Program-made: the position numbers and the translations under genes | The notes under the pieces: generated by a model | Seen by the model: the letters and a program-made list of their open reading frames with translations, nothing else | Database searches by the model: none | What the model was told of the DNA's origin: nothing | Shown here: positions 6,137-16,445 of the stretch, piece by piece | How the letters are laid out: the number at the start of each line of letters is the position of its first letter | How positions within the stretch are numbered: position 1 is the stretch's first letter | Assembly (NCBI RefSeq): GCF_021596945.1 | Contig: NZ_CP063779.1 | Location: 3,074,001 to 3,138,000, forward strand | Direction of reading: 5' to 3' | DNA: 64,000 nt | Source of the DNA: Mongoliitalea daihaiensis | GTDB taxonomy: Bacteria > Bacteroidota > Bacteroidia > Cytophagales > Cyclobacteriaceae

Positions 6137-9019
6137 TTAAAACTTCAAGATAAATTCCTGAAGGTTTTCGCTTCGCTCCAAGTTTAACTTTTTACGTAGG
6201 CGGTAGCGCGAGATTTCTACTCCTCTTGCAGAGATATTCATCAAGTGTGCAATTTCTTTGGTAGATAGATTCATTCTTAAGTAAGCAGAGAGTTTGATTT
6301 CCTGTGGGCTTAAACTTGGGAATGATTTTTTAAACCGTTCCATAAAATCTCCATGGACTTGATCAAAATGAATTTCAAATTGTTCCCAATCATTGTCTTC
6401 CGCTATATTTTTATCAATGCTATTGATGACTTTTTCTAACTCATTTTTGACTTCTTGATTTTTACTTTTTTTAATAATTTGGGAAAGTTGATTTTTGGTA
6501 TGATCAATAAATTCATTTTTGTTCAGTAAATGCATGGTAGCAGATGCCAGTTCTTTATTTTTACTTTGGATCTCTGCTTCTAATTTTTCGGTTTGAAGAC
6601 GGGCCAACTCTTGTTTGGATATTTCGAGATCAGTTTCTTTTTGATTCAGTTCCTCCTGTTGCTTGGCCGTGATTATTTTAGTTTTCTTTTGATATCGACG
6701 ATCTACTCTATTGAAGATTCCTATCAATAAAACAGCACTTCCCAAAAAGTAAATGAAATAAGCGAGACTGGTTCTATACCAAGGAGGAAGAATAGAGAAA
6801 GTAAAGGGGATAGCTTCTCCTATTTGTCCATAAATATCCTTGCTTTGCACATAGAATTTATAAGACCCCTCACGAAGATTGGTGTATTCTTTATCACTTT
6901 TAGCAGACCAATCACCAAATTCCTCTTCCAACCCATCAAGCCTCACTCTAAAATGTGTATTCAATTGGCTGTTGGGAATGCTGTTGGAGAATTCGAATCG
7001 GATGTCAGACTTATTGAAAGGCAAAACCAAATTTTTACCTTTTGTTTCCAGTCCAAATCTCTCCTCCATGAAGTCTATGTTTTTTCCTATAGCCACTAGT
7101 GAGTCAGACATGCCCGTAACGTGCACAGACCTGATAAAAGTTGGATAAGGAGGAGGCACTAGTTCGTTGATGGCTTTTTTATACCATATAAATCCTTCTT
7201 TTGCAGCGAACATCACTTCATTGGTGCGGAGTAAAGAGATGTTTTGAAGATCATCATTCAATAAAGGGAGTAAGCGATTAAATAGTTGTGTTGATTTTTG
7301 ATACGTCCCGTCTAATTGTTTTTCAAGTATGCCGATTTCATTGGATCCAATATAAAAAATGTTACCAACTGGATCCTCTACTAGGCTTGTGATCAAAATA
7401 TCTTCATTGAAATAAGAATTGATTAATTGTTCTTTTTCAAATTTATCCGTTCGTTGGTTGTATTGATAGAGACCAAATTCTGTAGTGAATATTAAACGAC
7501 CCCCGATCTTCCATACTGAATTTAATAAGTTAGTCGGTAATCCTTCTTTGTTTCCATAAAATTTTGCTTCTACAGAAGTAAGGTCATCAGAAAGGATTAA
7601 TTTATAAATTCCTTTGTAGCCGTGTGACATCCAAAGGTTACCATAATCATCGCGTTGAATGAGTCTTGATGACTCATTGAATCCATTTAATCTACGGACA
7701 AATTGATAGTTATCATTTACTTTTTGATAAAGGGCGACTCCGCTGTAAGTCCCAGCCAAGAAAAAGCCAGGGTGGTTTTCTAAGGCTAAAAAGTTCCAAA
7801 CCCCATCTAATCCATTCATTGGAATGGCTTCATTTTTATTTAGTACAAATCCACCGGCATTGTGTCCCAATAATAGGTCATTTCCAATGATTGAAAAACT
7901 GTAGGATTGCCCATCTGTGTTACTTACGCTTGATAATTCATTGGAATTTCTGGATATTTTTTTTACATGTATATTGGTTCCTAGATAAATATCATCTTGG
8001 AATTGTACAGCTGCATAGCCTGTCCCATTGATCCCAACATCTCTTCCGAAAACCCGGAAAGGCAGTCGAAGTTCCAATAGACTAATACCATTATTATGGC
8101 CAATCCATAAATTTCCATTGATATCTTCAAAAAGAGAAAGGATTGTATTGTTTCTTAGACCTCGTTCTTTATCCATGTTTAAGACGAGTTGACCGCTTTC
8201 ATCAAAAATAAAAAGTCCTTGGTATTGGGTCCCAATGGCAATGTTACCATTCTTCAATCGCAATACTGTATTGATAGAGCTGATACCTTTTGTTTTGGAG
8301 TTATTTTCAACGCGTACCTTTTGAGAAGCATAGTTCAGGAGATTGCCTCCAGCCATATAGATTTGTAATTGACCTGAATTAATTTCAAAAATCCCAGTGA
8401 TAACTTCATTATTGAATACGTCTGGATCTGATAGTTTGATCGTAGTTCCTCCGTTATTTAGTTTAAGTAGTCCAGCCTCATTGTCTTGAAAATAGAGCTG
8501 TTGATTGGTTTGGTGGAAACTCTGAAAATTACCTTTTGATTCTATCGTATGTTTGAGTGTTCCATGTTGATCAAAAATAAATATTGCATAGAATGAACAA
8601 AAAATCAAATCATCTTGGTGTTTGTATACTTTCCAAACTTCCTCAATATTTTGATATTCTAGTGGGAGTTTGGGTATCCAAGAAATGAACTCCAACAATC
8701 CTTTTTGATTTGGTCTAAAGTATCCTAGTTGGCCTTGACCTGCGACGTAAATACGGCCGTCATTTTCGATGTAGAGATCGCGTATCTTGGTACTGTTGGG
8801 GAGACCATAACGTTCCCAATTTCCCCCATCATATTCAAGTAAACCAAAATTATTTGCAGTGTAAATGATGCCATATTTGTTTTGGCTAATAGCATAATTC
8901 TGCATGCCCCCATCATATTCCTTACTGGAAAAATAATGGTAAAAAGGCAACCCCATTTCCTGTGCAGTTAGTTGAGTGCTCATGAATAGGAGTAAAATTA
9001 GATAATGATGTATGCGCAT
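6137..9019 (-). CDS. Membrane-bound propeller / Y_Y_Y / LuxR-type HTH transcriptional regulator
   Basis: A 960-residue protein. It has a signal peptide (about 1-19) and a long periplasmic two-component-regulator-type beta-propeller (about 20-680; repeats such as ILSLFEDINGNLWIGHNNGI and LIQRDDYGNLWMSHGYKGI). A Y_Y_Y domain (about 685-755; FRVRLDGLEEEFGDWS, EYTNLREGSYKFYV) and one membrane helix (about 758-778) come next. A cytosolic coiled coil (about 785-885) leads to a C-terminal GerE/LuxR-type helix-turn-helix (LSPQEIKLSAYLRMNLSTKEI, SARGVEISRYRLRKKL). No histidine kinase or receiver is present, so it should act as a one-component transmembrane regulator. It is divergent from the GH16 polysaccharide locus. 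Inference: it senses a beta-glucan oligosaccharide and controls that locus. Confidence 0.9.
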   Translation of the reverse strand: MRIHHYLILLLFMSTQLTAQEMGLPFYHYFSSKEYDGGMQNYAISQNKYGIIYTANNFGLLEYDGGNWERYGLPNSTKIRDLYIENDGRIYVAGQGQLGYFRPNQKGLLEFISWIPKLPLEYQNIEEVWKVYKHQDDLIFCSFYAIFIFDQHGTLKHTIESKGNFQSFHQTNQQLYFQDNEAGLLKLNNGGTTIKLSDPDVFNNEVITGIFEINSGQLQIYMAGGNLLNYASQKVRVENNSKTKGISSINTVLRLKNGNIAIGTQYQGLFIFDESGQLVLNMDKERGLRNNTILSLFEDINGNLWIGHNNGISLLELRLPFRVFGRDVGINGTGYAAVQFQDDIYLGTNIHVKKISRNSNELSSVSNTDGQSYSFSIIGNDLLLGHNAGGFVLNKNEAIPMNGLDGVWNFLALENHPGFFLAGTYSGVALYQKVNDNYQFVRRLNGFNESSRLIQRDDYGNLWMSHGYKGIYKLILSDDLTSVEAKFYGNKEGLPTNLLNSVWKIGGRLIFTTEFGLYQYNQRTDKFEKEQLINSYFNEDILITSLVEDPVGNIFYIGSNEIGILEKQLDGTYQKSTQLFNRLLPLLNDDLQNISLLRTNEVMFAAKEGFIWYKKAINELVPPPYPTFIRSVHVTGMSDSLVAIGKNIDFMEERFGLETKGKNLVLPFNKSDIRFEFSNSIPNSQLNTHFRVRLDGLEEEFGDWSAKSDKEYTNLREGSYKFYVQSKDIYGQIGEAIPFTFSILPPWYRTSLAYFIYFLGSAVLLIGIFNRVDRRYQKKTKIITAKQQEELNQKETDLEISKQELARLQTEKLEAEIQSKNKELASATMHLLNKNEFIDHTKNQLSQIIKKSKNQEVKNELEKVINSIDKNIAEDNDWEQFEIHFDQVHGDFMERFKKSFPSLSPQEIKLSAYLRMNLSTKEIAHLMNISARGVEISRYRLRKKLNLERSENLQEFILKF

Positions 9020-9061
9020 GAAATGGGTAAACTTAAACTAGTTTCGAAAATACATTTTTTT

Positions 9062-9222
9062 TTGATGTATTTGTGATTAATCTATCATTTCTTAGGAAAA
9101 TATGCATTTACACTACGAAAACGATTGAAATTCATGCCTTTTTTGCAGTTGATGTGTTTTTGTGAAAGTTATTTTGTTTCGTTGATGTAGTATTGATGTA
9201 CTCTTAGTTTTTGATTGATGTA
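9062..9222. promoter_or_regulatory. Five helically phased TTGATGT(A/G) direct repeats between the regulator and susC
   Basis: Copies begin at 9062, 9149 (TTGATGTG), 9182, 9193 and 9215. The start-to-start spacings are 87, 33, 22 and 11 (ordered 9062-9149, 9149-9182, 9193-9215, 9182-9193), all within one base of a multiple of 11. All are in the same orientation, toward susC, so a protein bound at each would lie on the same face of the helix. A weak promoter-like TAGTTTTTG (9205-9213) lies between the fourth and fifth copies. Inference: binding sites of the divergent LuxR-type regulator. The repeats and spacing are read directly; the assignment is not proven. Confidence 0.6.
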
Positions 9223-9264
9223 CAATCTTTCGGTCCTTGTGATAGTATTATAAATCCAAAATAC

Positions 9265-12200
9265 ATGAAAAAATTATTTACATTACTTTTGTTTTTGGGT
9301 ATTCAATTGTCATTGTTTGCTCAAACAGGGTCCATTCGAGGACAAGTACTCGACGAACGGGGTGATCCCATTCCAGGAGCCAGTATATTGAAGGTAGGCA
9401 CATCTACGGGAACAGTTACTGACCTAGACGGTAATTTTACCCTTGCTGCTGTACCAGGGGATCAATTAAGAGTTAGTTTTATTGGTTACTCAACCCAAAC
9501 GATTACCGTTGGAAACCAAGCAGAACTGATGATTCGTTTGAATGATGAAATATCATCACTTAACGAAGTGATCGTTGTAGGCTACGGTACAGCCACTAAA
9601 AAGGAACTTACAGGTGCGGTTTCACAAATCAAAGGTGAAGCAGTCGCAGACATGAATATGCCTAGATTAGATCAGGCCTTACAAGGGAAGCTTTCTGGGG
9701 TAACTATCACTACAAACTCCGGTGCACCAGGAGGTACATCTAATATCCGAATTCGAGGTTTAGGTACATTCGGTAACAACAATCCATTGATTTTGGTGGA
9801 TGGTGTTATTTTTGATGCAGCTGGTCTAAACTCGTTAAACCCCAATGATATTGAGTCTATCAATGTTTTGAAAGATGCCACTGCTGGTATTTATGGTGTG
9901 AGAGCGGCGAATGGTGTAATCATAGTGGAGACCAAGAAAGGTACAAAAAATCAAAAACCTTCGTTAGAATTTAGCAGCTATTACGGGGTTCAAGAGGCAG
10001 CAAGGCAATTGAATCTTTTAAATGCTAGTGAATATGCCATATTAGCGAATGAGGCATTTGCAGCAGGAGGAAATTTGCCACCTTTTGCAAACACTAATCT
10101 AGGAACAGGCACTGATTGGCAGCGAGAAATATTCCAGACTGCTCCCATTCAAGAACATATGCTTACTCTAAATGGAGGTTCTGAGAAGACATCCTATTCA
10201 ATTGGAGGGGGGTATTTTGGGCAGCAAGGTATCGTAGGTGGAGATCGCTCCAATTTTGAACGTTACAACGCGCGTATCAACTTTATTACGGAAATCGCTC
10301 CTAAGTTAAAGTTGACCTCAGTATTCTTGTATTCTCATGAGCGTTCTAGTGGTATTCCACAAGGAGGAATTGGTTCGGTATTATTTAATACAATCAATGC
10401 TTATCCAACAGAGCCGGTACGAGTGGGTAACCGATTTTCTTACCTAGAAAATGTACAAGATATTATTAATCCATTAGCCCAAATTGAAAACACTTTCAAT
10501 AATGCTGCTGTAAATAAAATCGTTGGAAAGCAGGAATTGTCTTACCAAATTGATGATCATTTTAGTATTAATGGTAGAGCGGGATACAATTTTGCATTGG
10601 TCGACGTAAAATCCTTTAGTCCTCTTGCTTGGTTTGGTCCAGGTAAGTTTGCCAACTCTGCAAGAAATGAGAATTTAGACCCAGTGTTGGTAGATGTAGG
10701 TGGTACTTTGATCGAGAGAGGAGCTAATGTCTTTGAATCAAGAGATTCCTTTTTGGACTACAACCTAGAGGCATTTTTGAATTATGATCGCTCATTTGAT
10801 AGCGATAATAGAGTGAAAGGTACCTTGGGAGTCAGTTACTTTGGCAATAGAAATATGGGGTTGAATGGGACAGCATTTAACATACCTAATAATGATGTAA
10901 GATTTGCTGATATTTCTGCCAATCAAGCGCCAGGCGGCTTTTTAAATCAAACAGGTTCTTTTCAAAGTATGCAGAAATTGGTTTCTGCTTTTGTGAGAGG
11001 AGAATATGAATATAAAGGACGTTATTCTATATCTGGTATTTTAAGAAGAGATGGTTCATCTAATTTTGGTCCAAACAACAGGATAGGTTATTTCCCGACA
11101 ATCTCTGGAGGTTGGATTATTTCGGATGAAAACTTCTTTAGTTCAAGAGTTATTGATTTCATGAAGCTAAGAGCTAGTTTTGGAGTATCAGGAAATGACC
11201 AAATCGGTTTATTTAGATATCGTGGATTGATGAATGGACTAGCTCGATATGTTTTCAATGATTTCATTGTTAATGGTGCAGCAATTGGGACATTCAGTAA
11301 CCCTGATCTAAAGTGGGAGACCACGCTTCAGACGAATATTGGTTTGGACTTTACCTTATTTAGAGAAATTGACTTTACAGCTAATTACTTTATTAAAGAT
11401 ACGAGAGACTTATTGTTCCAGCCGGAAGTTTCTGCATTGTTAGGTTCTTATGGGCCTGGTAGTTTTCCTCCGTTTATCAATGCTGGTAATGTTACCAACC
11501 GTGGGGTAGAATTGGAGATAGCGTATGCGACCAAGAGACCAAGTGGAGTAAATTTCAGTATTGATTACAACGTGACCTATATTAGGAACAGAGTGACCAA
11601 AGTACCTGAAGGTTTAGACTTTATACCGGGAGCTGGATTTGGAGTAGGTGGTAATATTGCTACACGTTTTCAAGAAGGGTTTCCAATCGGATATTTCGTA
11701 GGTTTTCAAACAGACGGAATCTGGCAAACTGCTGAGGAGATCGCATCAAGTCCGGTTGTTCAACCAGATGCTAGACCAGGTGATTTACGTTTTGTAGATG
11801 CAAATGGTGATGGAGTCATCAGTTTTAGTGATGAATCTGATTTGACATTCTTAGGTTCTCCTATACCAGATTTTATCATGGGTTTCAACTTTGCTGTAGA
11901 CTACAAAGGCTTTGATTTTTCTGCCAATATTTATGCAGCATTGGGTCAGGAAATTATTCGTAATTATGAAAGACAGCAGCCATTTGCCAATAAAATGGCT
12001 TACAATGTAAATCGATGGACTGGTCCTGGGACGACAAATGAAATTCCTCGCTTAACTACTGGTCAGACTAGAAATACCGTGTTTTCCGACTTCTATGTAG
12101 AAGACGGTTCATTTGCACGATTAAGAAATGTGCAGATTGGCTACACCTTGCCGGATGCTGTAACTGGTAAAGTCGGGATCCGTTCGATGAGGTTCTACAT

Positions 12201-12345
12201 TGCGGCAAACAACTTGTTGACCTTTACTAGATATATGGGCTTTGACCCAGATGTAGGATCTGGTAATCCATTGTTTGCAGGTGTTGATAATGGGATCTTC
12301 CCTCAAGCAAGAGTAATCATGGGTGGTTTAAATTTTAGATTCTAA
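9265..12345 (+). CDS. SusC/RagA-family TonB-linked outer-membrane transporter (laminarin-type PUL)
   Basis: The start chosen is the ATG at 9265, giving signal peptide MKKLFTLLLFLGIQLSLFAQ; the frame is open a further 18 codons upstream, but that would put a polar stretch before the signal peptide. The protein (1026 residues) has a carboxypeptidase-regulatory-like domain (about 22-100; GSIRGQVLDERGDPIPGAS). Next come a SusC-type plug (VIVVGYGTATKKELTGAVS, IRIRGLGT, PLILVDG, INVLKDATAGIYGVRAANG) and a barrel ending GGLNFRF. It moves oligosaccharides across the outer membrane in complex with the SusD encoded 5 bases downstream. The GH16 gene of the same cluster indicates a beta-1,3-glucan ligand. 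Confidence 0.95.
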   Translation: MKKLFTLLLFLGIQLSLFAQTGSIRGQVLDERGDPIPGASILKVGTSTGTVTDLDGNFTLAAVPGDQLRVSFIGYSTQTITVGNQAELMIRLNDEISSLNEVIVVGYGTATKKELTGAVSQIKGEAVADMNMPRLDQALQGKLSGVTITTNSGAPGGTSNIRIRGLGTFGNNNPLILVDGVIFDAAGLNSLNPNDIESINVLKDATAGIYGVRAANGVIIVETKKGTKNQKPSLEFSSYYGVQEAARQLNLLNASEYAILANEAFAAGGNLPPFANTNLGTGTDWQREIFQTAPIQEHMLTLNGGSEKTSYSIGGGYFGQQGIVGGDRSNFERYNARINFITEIAPKLKLTSVFLYSHERSSGIPQGGIGSVLFNTINAYPTEPVRVGNRFSYLENVQDIINPLAQIENTFNNAAVNKIVGKQELSYQIDDHFSINGRAGYNFALVDVKSFSPLAWFGPGKFANSARNENLDPVLVDVGGTLIERGANVFESRDSFLDYNLEAFLNYDRSFDSDNRVKGTLGVSYFGNRNMGLNGTAFNIPNNDVRFADISANQAPGGFLNQTGSFQSMQKLVSAFVRGEYEYKGRYSISGILRRDGSSNFGPNNRIGYFPTISGGWIISDENFFSSRVIDFMKLRASFGVSGNDQIGLFRYRGLMNGLARYVFNDFIVNGAAIGTFSNPDLKWETTLQTNIGLDFTLFREIDFTANYFIKDTRDLLFQPEVSALLGSYGPGSFPPFINAGNVTNRGVELEIAYATKRPSGVNFSIDYNVTYIRNRVTKVPEGLDFIPGAGFGVGGNIATRFQEGFPIGYFVGFQTDGIWQTAEEIASSPVVQPDARPGDLRFVDANGDGVISFSDESDLTFLGSPIPDFIMGFNFAVDYKGFDFSANIYAALGQEIIRNYERQQPFANKMAYNVNRWTGPGTTNEIPRLTTGQTRNTVFSDFYVEDGSFARLRNVQIGYTLPDAVTGKVGIRSMRFYIAANNLLTFTRYMGFDPDVGSGNPLFAGVDNGIFPQARVIMGGLNFRF

Positions 12346-12350
12346 GAGAC

Positions 12351-13817
12351 ATGAAAAAAATAAAAATATTTCTACTTGCAGTCAGCATGAGCTTTGTGTC
12401 ATGTGATGCTTGGTTGGATCTTGAACCTGAATTTGTTCAAGATGCAGAAAACTTTTTCCTCACCCCAGAGGACTATGAGCGGGCGGTAATTGGTGTGTAT
12501 GATTTGATGCAAGCAAACTACCTACATCTATGGATAGGCGAAATCGCATCAGATAATTCCATCGCTGGTGGAGAAAGTGTTAATGATACGCAAGGCTTAC
12601 ATGAAATTGATGGCATGCGTCATGGCGGAATCAATGCAGAATTAAGGAACGTCATGCGTTTTAATTATGCTGGTATCGGAAGAGCCAATTTTGTTTTCGA
12701 AAATGAGGATAACATTGACTTCCCACAGAAGGAGCGTTTAATGGCTGAAATATCTTTCATTAGGGCGTATTATTACTTTACCTTGGTAAAGTATTTTGGA
12801 GATATTCCATTAATTGTTGACAGAAGAGCTTCTATTAATGAAGTATTTCAATTAGACAGAACTCCAAGAGCCCAAGTTTATGCTCAAATAGAGCAAGATT
12901 TGGATAGAGCTATCCAAGTGTTGAATTGGACAAACCCTGAATTAGGAAGAATCACCAAAGGTGCTGCTATGGCCTTGAAAGGGAAGGTTTTATTGTACCA
13001 GAACAAATTTGGTGAAGCAGCGCAAGTTTTGGGTGATTTGATTACCACAAATGAGGCTGGTTATGCTTTGGTTCCAAATATGTCCACTATGTGGTTGGCC
13101 GTAAATCAAAATAGTTCTGAAGACGTATTTACCATACAGCATTCTGGATTGCAAGGTGGAGACTATGGTTGTTTGGTTTGTTTACAGGGAAATCCTGCAC
13201 CAGGTTTTCACGCTATTCGTAACTATGTTGGTCCTTTTTATGGAGATGGTAATAGTTACAACTTACCTACTCAGAATTTGTATGATTTCTTTGGAAATGA
13301 TCCAAGAAGAGACGTGACAATTTTGGATTTGGAGGCGTTCATTGCAGGCCAACCAAATGCTTCAGATATCACGTTTGCAATTGGAGCAGGTGGGCATACA
13401 GGTTATTTCAACAATAAGTACATCAAAAGAGATGCAGAAAGGGGACTTCCTGATGATGATTTGACCAGTCCCTTGAACTATCGGGCAATTCGATATGCGG
13501 ATGTTCTATTGATGGCAGCAGAGGCATTTGCTCAAACTGGTAACGATGCACGAGCACGGACAGAGTTGAACAAAGTGAGGCAAAGAGCTGGCGTAGCTGA
13601 TATTACAAGCGCGGGTACTCAATTGCTAGAAGATATCTACAGAGAGCGTAGATTAGAACTTTCAGGTGAAGGTTACAGATTTTGGGATTTGGTCCGGACA
13701 GGAAAGGCGTCAGAAGCCATTCAAGGATTCCAAGTTGGCAAACATGAGTTATTTCCAATTCCTCAAGTAGAAATAGACTTAGCGGGTGGTAGATGGAGTC
13801 AAAATCCTGGTTATTAA
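12351..13817 (+). CDS. SusD/RagB-family surface glycan-binding lipoprotein
   Basis: A 488-residue protein beginning with a lipoprotein signal peptide (MKKIKIFLLAVSMSFVSCD, lipobox cysteine at 19). The following acidic residues fit surface-exposed lipoproteins. It has the SusD features: an N-terminal LDLEPE segment, TPR-like helices including FIRAYYYFTLVKYFGDIPLI, and the C-terminal LNYRAIRYADVLLMAAEAF and IYRERRLELSGEGYRFWDLVRTG stretches, ending with FPIP..E. It forms the lid of the SusC channel and binds oligosaccharide on the cell surface. The gene begins 5 bases after susC, so the two are clearly cotranscribed. Confidence 0.95.
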   Translation: MKKIKIFLLAVSMSFVSCDAWLDLEPEFVQDAENFFLTPEDYERAVIGVYDLMQANYLHLWIGEIASDNSIAGGESVNDTQGLHEIDGMRHGGINAELRNVMRFNYAGIGRANFVFENEDNIDFPQKERLMAEISFIRAYYYFTLVKYFGDIPLIVDRRASINEVFQLDRTPRAQVYAQIEQDLDRAIQVLNWTNPELGRITKGAAMALKGKVLLYQNKFGEAAQVLGDLITTNEAGYALVPNMSTMWLAVNQNSSEDVFTIQHSGLQGGDYGCLVCLQGNPAPGFHAIRNYVGPFYGDGNSYNLPTQNLYDFFGNDPRRDVTILDLEAFIAGQPNASDITFAIGAGGHTGYFNNKYIKRDAERGLPDDDLTSPLNYRAIRYADVLLMAAEAFAQTGNDARARTELNKVRQRAGVADITSAGTQLLEDIYRERRLELSGEGYRFWDLVRTGKASEAIQGFQVGKHELFPIPQVEIDLAGGRWSQNPGY

Positions 13818-13824
13818 TTGAACG

Positions 13825-15306
13825 ATGATGAAAAAATATTTAAAAATAGCAGCTTTTCTCTTGCCCATTCTATTTGTATGGTCATGTGTAGAGGAATTTA
13901 GACTAGATGCTGAAGCACCTACTGTACAGGATGCAGGGTTCAGTTTCATACCGTCTACAGAAAGTGATAATATATTGGACTTTGTAGGTGACGGTGACTT
14001 CTTCTTGATGGTTTGGGATCTTGGTAATGGTGTACGAACAGAAGGAAGAAGAGTAAGAGGTTTTTACCCGTTGGCAGGTACTTATACGGTTACATTGACA
14101 GTATATGATAAAGGAGGAAGCTCCAGCTTTAGCCAAGATGTAATTATTGAAGAGACAGACCCTACATTGTTGGATAGACCAATATTCAATCTTTTGACAG
14201 GTGGCGTTGATGCGGTAGAAGGCAAGACTTGGGTAATTGACTCTGCGAGATTGGGTCACCTTGGTGTTGGACCTGCTACTAGCTTCTTTCCTGATTTCTA
14301 TCAGGCTCAGCCTAACGAAAAAGTAGGTAGTGGAATGTATAATTCGCGATACACTTTTAAATTGACAGGATTTGAGTTTGACTGGAATACTAATGGTCTT
14401 GTGTACTTAAACGGAGCTCAGGGTTCTGCTTTTCCAGGTGCTTTTGATCCAGGGGTAGGTGATCTATCAGCTCCTTTTGTGTCCCCAGGAGGATTGAATT
14501 GGAATATTTTGGAAGAAGAAAGTCCTTTCCCTGTGTTGACTGTCACCAATCCTGGTTTTATTGGTTACTTTACGGGTGTTAGATCCTATCAGTTGGTGGT
14601 CTTGGAAGAAAATCAAATGTTCTTAAGATTTAGGGATGGCGCAAATGAAGATCTATTCTGGTACGTGCGCTTGATACCGGCTGGTTTTGCTGGTCAGCCT
14701 GATCCAGAACCAGAGCCCGAACCAGAACCAGAGCCAGAAAATCCAGATGTAAATCTTTCTCTCAATGATTTGATAGGTAGCGGAACAAAAGCTTGGAAGT
14801 TAAAACCTGCTGCGGGTGCTTTCGGAGTTGGTCCTTCTCCTGGTAGCGATGCATTCTTCCCGAACGGACCTAGTATTGCTGGAGATCGCCCATGTTTATT
14901 TAACGACCTATATATCTTTAAAGAGGGTGGGGTGTATGAGTATAATGCTCAAGGTGATATTTATGCGGAAGATTACATGGGTATTTCAGGTGGAGGGTGT
15001 CAACCAGAAGCAAATCTAGCTGGTACTCCTGGTGCTGCATGGGCTTCGGGAACGCATCAATTCAGCTTTGAGCCGTCTTCTGGTAACAATCGTGCGAAAA
15101 TTACCGTTACAGGTACAGGTGCTTTCATTGCTTTGCCTAAGGCATTCAATGGAGGGGAATACACAGCTGGTCCTCCAAGGGCCAATGAGTCTGTGACATA
15201 CGATGTATTAAATTATGATCCAGCTACGCAAGAACTAACGTTAGTGATTGCTATCAATCCTGCTAGCGACTTATGGTGGACATTCGTTTTGATTCCTGAT
15301 AATTAA
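13825..15306 (+). CDS. PKD-domain surface glycan-binding lipoprotein with duplicated C-terminal module
   Basis: A 493-residue lipoprotein (signal peptide ending VWSC, cysteine near 21). A PKD-like domain (about 30-112; WDLGNG, GFYPLAGTYTVTLTVYD) comes first. Then a module (about 130-290) contains KTWVIDSARLGHLGVGP. An acidic proline-rich linker DPEPEPEPEPEPEN (about 293-306) separates it from a second copy of the module (about 312-493; KAWKLKPAAGAFGVGP). The two modules share the W..D/K....GVGP pattern and an equally placed tryptophan near the end (DLFWYVRLIPA, DLWWTFVLIPD), pointing to internal duplication. Its place between susD and GH16 and its architecture fit a SusE/F-like surface glycan-binding protein. 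The glucan specificity is inferred from context. Confidence 0.82.
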   Translation: MMKKYLKIAAFLLPILFVWSCVEEFRLDAEAPTVQDAGFSFIPSTESDNILDFVGDGDFFLMVWDLGNGVRTEGRRVRGFYPLAGTYTVTLTVYDKGGSSSFSQDVIIEETDPTLLDRPIFNLLTGGVDAVEGKTWVIDSARLGHLGVGPATSFFPDFYQAQPNEKVGSGMYNSRYTFKLTGFEFDWNTNGLVYLNGAQGSAFPGAFDPGVGDLSAPFVSPGGLNWNILEEESPFPVLTVTNPGFIGYFTGVRSYQLVVLEENQMFLRFRDGANEDLFWYVRLIPAGFAGQPDPEPEPEPEPEPENPDVNLSLNDLIGSGTKAWKLKPAAGAFGVGPSPGSDAFFPNGPSIAGDRPCLFNDLYIFKEGGVYEYNAQGDIYAEDYMGISGGGCQPEANLAGTPGAAWASGTHQFSFEPSSGNNRAKITVTGTGAFIALPKAFNGGEYTAGPPRANESVTYDVLNYDPATQELTLVIAINPASDLWWTFVLIPDN

Positions 15307-15311
15307 TTAGT

Positions 15312-16445
15312 ATGAAGGGTGTAAAATTCAAACAAATCCTACTACTTTTTCTTGCAGCAGCCCTACTTTGGGGCTGCGAGCAAGAAGAAGTAGATTTAAA
15401 AGTATTATTGCCTACAAATTTACAAATTGAAGTTGAGCAAGGTGAAAGAGGAAATGTAACAGTAAGTTTTTCAGCGCAAAATGCTAACTTTTTTAGGGTT
15501 GGTTTTGGCGTGGACGAGCAATTGCCTGAATTGGCAACAGGCAATCAAATGTCCTTTACTTATAGAGAAGCAGGTACATTTACGATTACCGTTCAAGCGC
15601 ATACTACTGAAAATGATTTTATTTCCGATACCCGTCAAGTAGAAATTTCGAGTGCAGCACTTGGTTTAGGGATTCCTACCACTGGTTTTGTAAGTCCTGA
15701 AAGTTATGAGGGCTATCGCTTAGTATGGAGAGATGAATTTAATGGTAGTGCATTATCTCAAGATTGGACTTATGATTTGGGTGATGGCTGTGCAAATAGC
15801 CTTTGCGGATGGGGCAACAATGAACTTCAATGGTACACAGATCGAAGGGAAAATGTTAGATTAGAAGGTGGAAATCTAATCATTACCGCTAGGAGAGAAA
15901 ATTTAGGGGGCAGACAATTCACCTCTTCGAGAATCAAAACAGAAGGCCGTCAGTCCTTCCAATTTGGAAGAATAGATATCAGGGCAGTTTTACCAAAGGG
16001 TCAAGGTATATGGCCTGCTCTTTGGATGCTTGGTGATAATATCAGGACTGTAGGTTGGCCTGCTTGTGGAGAAATTGATATCATGGAAATGGTAGGAGGT
16101 CCTGCAACAGCTCGTAATAATGAAGTTCATGGAACGGTACATTGGGACAATAATGGATCATGGGCCAATACCGGCGGATCCACTACTTTGAGACAAGGTA
16201 TTTTCAATGATAACTTTCATGTTTTTTCTATTATCTGGGATGAACAGCGGATTGTTTGGTTATTAGATAACGTTGCATTCCATACTGTAGATATTACACC
16301 TGCTGCACTTTCAGAACTTAGAGAGTCTTTCTTCTTTTTATTCAACATTGCAGTAGGGGGAAATTGGCCTGGAGATCCTGATGGAACTACTACCTTCCCT
16401 CAGCAGATGGTAGTAGATTATGTAAGAGTATTTCAGAGATTATAA
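15312..16445 (+). CDS. Glycoside hydrolase family 16 endo-beta-1,3-glucanase (laminarinase-like), lipoprotein
   Basis: A 377-residue lipoprotein (signal peptide ending LLWGC, cysteine at about 22). A short Ig/PKD-like domain (about 30-115; GTFTITVQAHT) precedes a GH16 catalytic domain (about 130-377). The catalytic signature GEIDIMEMVGG places the nucleophile at Glu254, the assisting Asp at 256 and the acid/base at Glu259. The surrounding WPALWMLG, WPACGEIDIME and HGTVHWD motifs are those of bacterial laminarinases and lichenases. It should cut beta-1,3-glucans (laminarin type, possibly mixed-linkage) at the cell surface, feeding products to SusC/D. It is the last gene of the cluster and is followed by a strong terminator. 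No accessory GH3, GH17 or GH30 gene is in the window. Confidence 0.93.
   Translation: MKGVKFKQILLLFLAAALLWGCEQEEVDLKVLLPTNLQIEVEQGERGNVTVSFSAQNANFFRVGFGVDEQLPELATGNQMSFTYREAGTFTITVQAHTTENDFISDTRQVEISSAALGLGIPTTGFVSPESYEGYRLVWRDEFNGSALSQDWTYDLGDGCANSLCGWGNNELQWYTDRRENVRLEGGNLIITARRENLGGRQFTSSRIKTEGRQSFQFGRIDIRAVLPKGQGIWPALWMLGDNIRTVGWPACGEIDIMEMVGGPATARNNEVHGTVHWDNNGSWANTGGSTTLRQGIFNDNFHVFSIIWDEQRIVWLLDNVAFHTVDITPAALSELRESFFFLFNIAVGGNWPGDPDGTTTFPQQMVVDYVRVFQRL

Follow-up and report, generated by a model that had tools for sequence, protein, structure and literature searches.

The 64,000-nucleotide stretch of Mongoliitalea daihaiensis DNA analyzed here (the window) carries a gene for a membrane regulator and, divergent from it, a susC-susD-PKD-GH16 operon (Table 1). 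The PKD-domain protein is, judging by its place in the operon, a probable surface glycan-binding protein, and the GH16 protein is matched by NCBIfam endo-beta-glucanase models below their cut-offs. Between the regulator and susC lies an intergenic region of 245 bp in which repeats and candidate promoter elements were located.

Table 1. Genes, repeats and candidate promoter elements at the regulator/susC locus (positions in the window)
Feature	Position	Strand	Basis or remark
960-aa membrane regulator: N-terminal signal-like helix, propeller, Y_Y_Y, TM helix, coiled coil, LuxR/GerE HTH	6137..9019	-	Pfam, AlphaFold, Foldseek
TATTTTCG, candidate regulator -7 box	9045..9052	-	by eye
Putative regulator-proximal half-site TTGATGTA, 120 bp upstream of core	9062..9069	+	about 20 bp upstream of the regulator's likely -7 box
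Putative second, weaker operator repeat TTGATGTGTTTTTGTGAAA, 33 bp upstream of core	9149..9167	+	copy 9149 is its first half
Putative core operator, 11-bp direct repeat TTGATGTAGTA-TTGATGTA	9182..9200	+	earlier copies 9182 and 9193; conservation
TTTTTG, candidate susC -33 box	9208..9213	+	T-run plus G conserved at +26..+31 from core
Fifth TTGATGTA copy, within predicted susC promoter spacer	9215..9222	+	alignment of 29 family promoters
TTG, 3' end of candidate susC -7 box (TAnnTTTG)	9237..9239	+	conserved at +55..+57
susC, SusC/RagA TonB-linked transporter, ATG at 9265	9265..12345	+	TIGR04056, 827.9 bits
susD	12351..13817	+	PF07980, PF14322
PKD-domain protein	13825..15306	+	PF18911, PF00801
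GH16 beta-glucanase with PKD domain	15312..16445	+	PF00722

Pfam detects Reg_prop repeats and a GerE domain (PF00196, 27.5 bits, cut-off 23.5) in the regulator, together with a Y_Y_Y match that narrowly misses its cut-off of 26.6 with 24.6 bits. Domains of the histidine kinase, receiver or AraC type were not found by Pfam, in agreement with the initial annotation, which had assigned the protein a LuxR/GerE rather than an AraC domain. The AlphaFold model (mean pLDDT 83.6) predicts a helix at the N terminus, a large region built of strands only, a long helical segment at 751-794, a further helix at 803-851 (with low confidence at about 790-808) and four helices at 905-959, the number expected of a GerE HTH. 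The best Foldseek match of the sensor is the periplasmic domain of BT4663 (TMt 0.75), consistent with a propeller plus Y_Y_Y sensor. Comparison of the regulator sequence with solved structures returned four matches, two of them HTCS sensors and two weak ones to RpoN.

Five copies of TTGATGT(A/G) start at 9062, 9149, 9182, 9193 and 9215, all on the plus strand, at the coordinates given by the initial annotation. That annotation had considered chance an inadequate explanation, and rightly so: not one of 10,000 dinucleotide-preserving shuffles of the intergenic region (9020-9264) reached five TTGATGTR. In shuffles of the same region, any 7-mer of at least three letters occurred five times in 3 of 10,000 rounds and a 7-mer with four copies in one 11-bp register in none of 10,000; this non-chance result for 7-mers depends on the exclusion of low-complexity words, since 116 of 5,000 shuffles contain some 7-mer at least five times when words of one or two letters are allowed. 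Over the 64-kb window TTGATGTR is found 12 times on both strands, compared with 6.6 expected from shuffles, and five of the 12 lie inside these 161 bases. The proposal that all copies are spaced by multiples of 11 bp is right for the last four, which share one register, and wrong for the first interval of 87. The DNA helix has 10.5 bp per turn. One helix face, as originally suggested, fits the 11-bp distance and roughly the 33-bp distance, while 120 bp corresponds to about 11.5 turns, so that same-face phasing cannot be claimed for the half-site at 9062.

Homologs of the regulator at E <= 1e-60 were identified in 70 of 118 family genomes. The family promoter scan comprised 30 loci including our own, one of which (L052) was without its 5' end, leaving 29 promoters for alignment. 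The 19-mer core TTGATGTAGTATTGATGTA is present at a score of at least 15/19 in 28 of these 29 (own included; the remaining one, L041, scores 14) and is retained down to 41% identity of the regulator protein. When the promoters are anchored on the core, a second repeat TGATGAGTTTTTGTGAAA at -33..-15 is conserved column by column, and a T-run ending in G at +26..+31 and a TTG at +55..+57 are shared as well. Repeats are therefore present at the orthologous loci, on which the initial annotation had staked its reading of them as an operator for a divergent LuxR-type membrane regulator beside a beta-glucan PUL, and their conservation supports that reading at the level of sequence.

The same alignment speaks against the five equivalent phased sites that had been proposed. 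Four of the five copies do share one 11-bp register, as a single five-site array with cooperative regulator binding would have it. Conservation, however, is unequal across the aligned promoters: the 9215 copy appears in only two of the 29 rows (L006 and L031, our own and the sister species), the 9149 copy is one half of a degenerate second repeat, and the 9062 copy is a conserved half-site of its own, at a spacing other than a multiple of 11. We therefore rejected five equal sites and regard such an array as very improbable. The arrangement that we favor instead consists of two direct repeats 33 bp apart and, at a distance of 120 bp from the core, a half-site that stands by itself, and the functional core, on this evidence, is the 11-bp direct repeat at 9182-9200.

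A wider set of promoters allowed the individual elements to be counted. The named loci are the best 80 of 229 from the genome collection; 79 of them have upstream DNA, and 63 of the 79 contain the core at a score of at least 15/19. Removal of near-duplicates left 73 of 108 promoters, 60 of them with the core. Among these 60, TGATGAGTTTTTGTGAAA at 13/18 or better occupies the second-repeat offset in 35, and the offset of the 9215 copy (+33 or +34) is used 13 times, as part of a second site in other clades. The proximal TTGATGTA element, at 7/8 or better and -119 to -122 from the core, is found in 29 of the 60, compared with a maximum of 4 in 200 shuffles, and 18 of the 60 are without a match. 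Its distance to the core has a standard deviation of 1.3 in the 32 promoters with a match at 117-124, a window chosen after the peak had been seen and outside which 16 of the 48 counted matches fall. In the same 32 promoters the distance to the regulator start ranges from 39 to 96 (standard deviation 15.5). Many of these 32 rows display, by eye, a TATATTG/TATCTTG-like box on the regulator strand about 20 bp downstream of the proximal site, and since the half-site lies about 20 bp upstream of that box we propose autoregulation.

Candidate promoter elements of susC can be placed relative to the core. The G of the candidate -7 box is kept in 15 of the 29 aligned promoters, and its TA part is not conserved. 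The sigma-A -7 box is described as located at -12 to -5 (PMC9723704), which puts the predicted transcription start of susC near 9244; relative to it the core would span about -63 to -45 and the second repeat about -96 to -78. A word directly before the susC start codon, AAATCCAAAA at 9252-9261, is kept in many of the 29 promoters. This word is a possible translation signal; atypical translation initiation sequences are reported for the phylum (PMC9723704).

Loci with and without an adjacent PUL differ in the core. A SusC, SusD, PKD or GH16 homolog lies within 2.5 kb of the regulator in 68 of the 79 named loci (SusC in 65 of the 68). The core is present in 63 of these 68, the other five scoring 14/19, and in none of the 11 named loci without adjacent glucan operon genes (Fisher 4.8e-10, a value uncorrected for kinship). 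Eight of the 11 genomes lacking the adjacent PUL have no SusC homolog at E <= 1e-150, and the remaining three hold six unlinked SusC-homolog loci. Two of the six, in two genomes, are preceded by the core: one (L251) scores 18/19 and has a second copy 33 bp further along, and the other (L253) scores 17/19, while the core is absent from the other four. In Cecembia lonarensis an exact core precedes a SusE-GH16 pair. The core goes with the target promoter and not with the regulator gene. As a separate observation, six Algoriphagus loci (L067, L068, L071, L101, L114 and L116) keep the regulator ortholog and miss the adjacent PUL, and their genomes contain no SusC homolog at E <= 1e-150; these orthologs may have new targets.

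An exact search for TTGATGTRNNNTTGATGTR detected three sites in the 4.8-Mb genome of M. daihaiensis, and its reversed pattern none. The first is the one in the regulator/susC gap; the second precedes a gene whose 1602-aa product has three CBM4_9 stretches as well as a type IX sorting tail; and after the third come a short transporter fragment and then a beta-1,3-glucan phosphorylase of GH149 (1580.8 bits, cut-off 1150). The sister species (G020) has the same three core sites, at regulator/susC, GH149 and CBM4. These results also bear on a more trivial explanation of the repeats, namely chance words in AT-rich intergenic DNA or promoter boxes repeated without any regulator. The region is indeed only 28% G+C and the susC promoter itself contains T-runs, yet neither the shuffles of the region nor the conservation of the repeats in diverged promoters agrees with this, and the only three exact genomic copies of the core all precede glucan genes. 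A chance origin was rejected by shuffling and orthologue comparison, and we give this explanation next to no weight against that of a conserved operator.

Two observations concern the Mongoliitalea loci themselves. The open reading frame between the trans operator and GH149 (L005:8743-9150, G000:C1) matches Sugar_tr at 346-451 of 452, its C-terminal quarter only, and in the sister species GH149 directly follows the trans operator without an intervening frame; from its sequence this frame looks like a transporter remnant. A stretch of the G020 regulator DNA was also found in Mongoliitalea lutea (L081).

For the regulon only exact matches were used, because a relaxed search of our own genome with two mismatches (24 matches, compared with 10 for the reversed pattern) was too noisy. 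Searched for as an exact 16-base word, the core matches at 34 places in 26 of the 118 family genomes. The reversed-pattern control gave 6 matches and is not independent, since the reversed pattern is part of TGATGTAGTAATGATGTAGT and 5 of the 6 fall in genomes with a TGATGTAGTAATGATGTA site. Eighteen of the 34 matches adjoin a regulator homolog, one is located immediately beyond the 3' end of a distant homolog, and the 15 others represent 14 promoters in trans. Eleven of these 14 are glucan-related: they precede GH149 (two), CBM4 proteins (three), GH16 or GH16-like proteins (five) and SusE (one), the CBM4 assignment in G070 being based on 39-47% identity by tblastn to the CBM4 protein. One further promoter (G086) precedes a PF10091 gene, which we take to be GH144-type, next to a paralogous regulator. 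The last two, inside susD in G034 and before a photolyase-like gene in G072, look like chance matches. The same site stands before unlinked genes of one pathway, as an operator of a beta-1,3-glucan regulon should.

A second site was sought from -48 to +59 in the 14 trans promoters plus four more. In 12 of the 18 (two ties) the highest-scoring additional match is located exactly at +33 or -33, and in one at -34; with shuffled flanks a second site at +33/-33 occurred in 0.5 promoters on average and in at most 3 of 18 over 500 rounds. Six of these second sites score at least 15/18, a value reached by no shuffle at that offset, and the other half score only 12-14 of 18. The two promoters judged to be chance (G034 and G072) have no second site at +33/-33. 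Periods of TGATGTA pairs were counted in the family among the 150 matches listed. Period 11 is the commonest with 36 pairs, 16 of them hand-marked as beside a regulator, compared with 4, 5 and 2 pairs at periods 10, 13 and 14. Because two period-19 pairs (G103:C35 and G111:C182) lie within about 300 bp of a homolog, the hand-marked zeros for other periods are inexact. Periods 9, 12, 15 and 18 are also raised (18-22 pairs each, among the same 150 matches), probably due to codon phase.

The core becomes rarer beside more diverged homologs of the regulator. Among 40 more distant family homologs it is present in 16 of 17 at 37% identity or more and in 6 of 23 below that. In the phylum-wide sample, homologs at E <= 1e-80 were identified in 51 of 296 genomes, and the core at 7 of 26 loci scanned, 5 of them outside the family. 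In 130 non-redundant promoters the core accompanies 77 of 93 regulators with the recognition helix RG[VI]EI[SAGC] and 7 of 37 others, a helix class that was drawn after the data had been seen and is confounded by descent. In our own genome one other match to the regulator covers the HTH region, and its recognition helix differs.

The operator of the glucan genes might instead be bound by another transcription factor, the adjacent regulator being a mere neighbor. Binding of the regulator to the core is a prediction, the presence of the core goes with the target promoter and not with the regulator gene, and in G086 an exact core adjoins a different, paralogous regulator. Against this, core presence tracks the recognition helix, the sole other HTH-covering match in our genome has a different helix, and 25 of the 26 family genomes with an exact core have a regulator homolog (E <= 1e-60), compared with 70 of 118 overall, two counts that are not independent because 18 of the 34 exact matches lie beside such a homolog. 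On balance we consider another factor unlikely and the adjacent regulator the better candidate.

The G086 locus (L171) deserves separate description. An exact core lies between the paralogous regulator, which is split over two frames, and the PF10091 gene; the sensor is 26% and the HTH 57% identical to ours, and the helix reads RGVEIK. This is probably a case of the same operator serving another glucan, and the exact core beside an RGVEIK helix appears, from sequence, to count against a simple helix-operator code. Variant words were seen near other homologs. Two loci from another family of the class (L238 and L242), with helix GGVELA, are without the core and contain TTGATGTGTTTTTGTA-like words that resemble the second repeat of the window at 9149. 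By eye, L220 has a variant operator TTGACGTAGTGTTGACGTA, in L209, L211 and L214 TTGTAGTA precedes a TTGATGTA half-site by 22 bp, and L207 has two TTGATGTAGT words 19 bp apart, all near distant homologs.

Taken together, the repeats most probably serve as operator for a beta-1,3-glucan regulon, with the adjacent membrane-bound regulator as its likely activator. Starting from the sites, their conservation and spacing and the target genes, all found by computation, we infer regulator binding, activation, a glucan signal, autorepression and the promoter boxes. Periplasmic glucan oligosaccharides would bind the propeller/Y_Y_Y sensor, and the signal would pass through the TM helix and coiled coil. 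Cytosolic LuxR-type HTHs could then bind head-to-tail with an 11-bp period, one per TTGATGTA half-site, one HTH dimer occupying the core and a second the weaker repeat 33 bp upstream. Since the candidate -33 box begins shortly downstream of the core, bound regulator could recruit RNA polymerase to susCD-PKD-GH16, and it may do so in trans at the GH149 and CBM4 genes. In the regulator's own promoter the 9062 half-site would overlie the -33/spacer region, where it probably limits regulator expression; judging from this placement, the regulator probably represses its own gene.

A bolder model, which we consider possible if rather doubtful, is a fixed nucleoprotein complex of two head-to-tail HTH dimers 33 bp apart and a third half-site 120 bp away on the regulator's promoter, perhaps with a DNA loop held at the membrane, in which HTH and operator would be conserved as a module through changes of sensor and glycan. 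If this were true, the recognition helix could reveal the type of operator used by PUL regulators throughout the Bacteroidota.

Laminarin, a beta-1,3-glucan, is described as a major algal carbon store (PMC13188888). Regulators of this kind occur in many Bacteroidota (70 of 118 family genomes and 51 of 296 in the phylum sample), and we found no operator for propeller/Y_Y_Y/LuxR regulators in the open-licence papers that we searched. With a defined operator, regulon members outside the PUL such as the GH149 phosphorylase, GH16 and CBM proteins can be listed, and regulator-target pairs may be predicted from sequence in many related bacteria. It also bears on how a membrane-tethered HTH reaches spaced sites.

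The closest parallel for the site itself is ComA of Bacillus subtilis, a protein with a LuxR-type HTH that binds direct repeats TTGCGG-5-TTGCGG (PMC4797271), which are likewise tandem half-sites in the same orientation with an 11-bp period. This direct-repeat site is linked to type II activation (PMC4797271). ComA differs in being a response regulator and in also having an inverted repeat site, whereas the M. daihaiensis regulator is a one-component membrane protein and its putative operator has two direct repeats at a distance of 33 bp and another half-site sequence. SusR-like regulators of Bacteroides resemble the present protein as membrane proteins whose sensor is periplasmic and whose HTH is C-terminal, and their predicted operators are widely spaced direct repeats, as here (PMC3878776). 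The predicted SusR sites are 67 or 77 bp apart between centers, compared with 11, 33 and 120 bp here, and the account of those sites mentions no 11-bp pair (PMC3878776). HTCSs of PULs such as BT4663 have a sensor fold in common with our regulator (TMt 0.75) and combine a histidine kinase, a receiver and an AraC HTH in one chain, unlike our regulator by Pfam.

Among beta-glucan systems, HTCSs are described for beta-1,3-glucan loci of gut Bacteroides, with one legend naming a SusR-like regulator (PMC7157763). The regulator treated in PMC12125979 is a different one. Formosa laminarin loci contain GH149 and GH16 (PMC6246565), and that paper uses neither the word LuxR nor the word promoter. Laminarin PULs of Muricauda have a LuxR-annotated first gene together with GH16 and GH149; their description in PMC13188888 gives no operator or regulon, both of which are proposed here. 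GH149 lies within these Muricauda PULs (PMC13188888), whereas in M. daihaiensis it lies outside the PUL.
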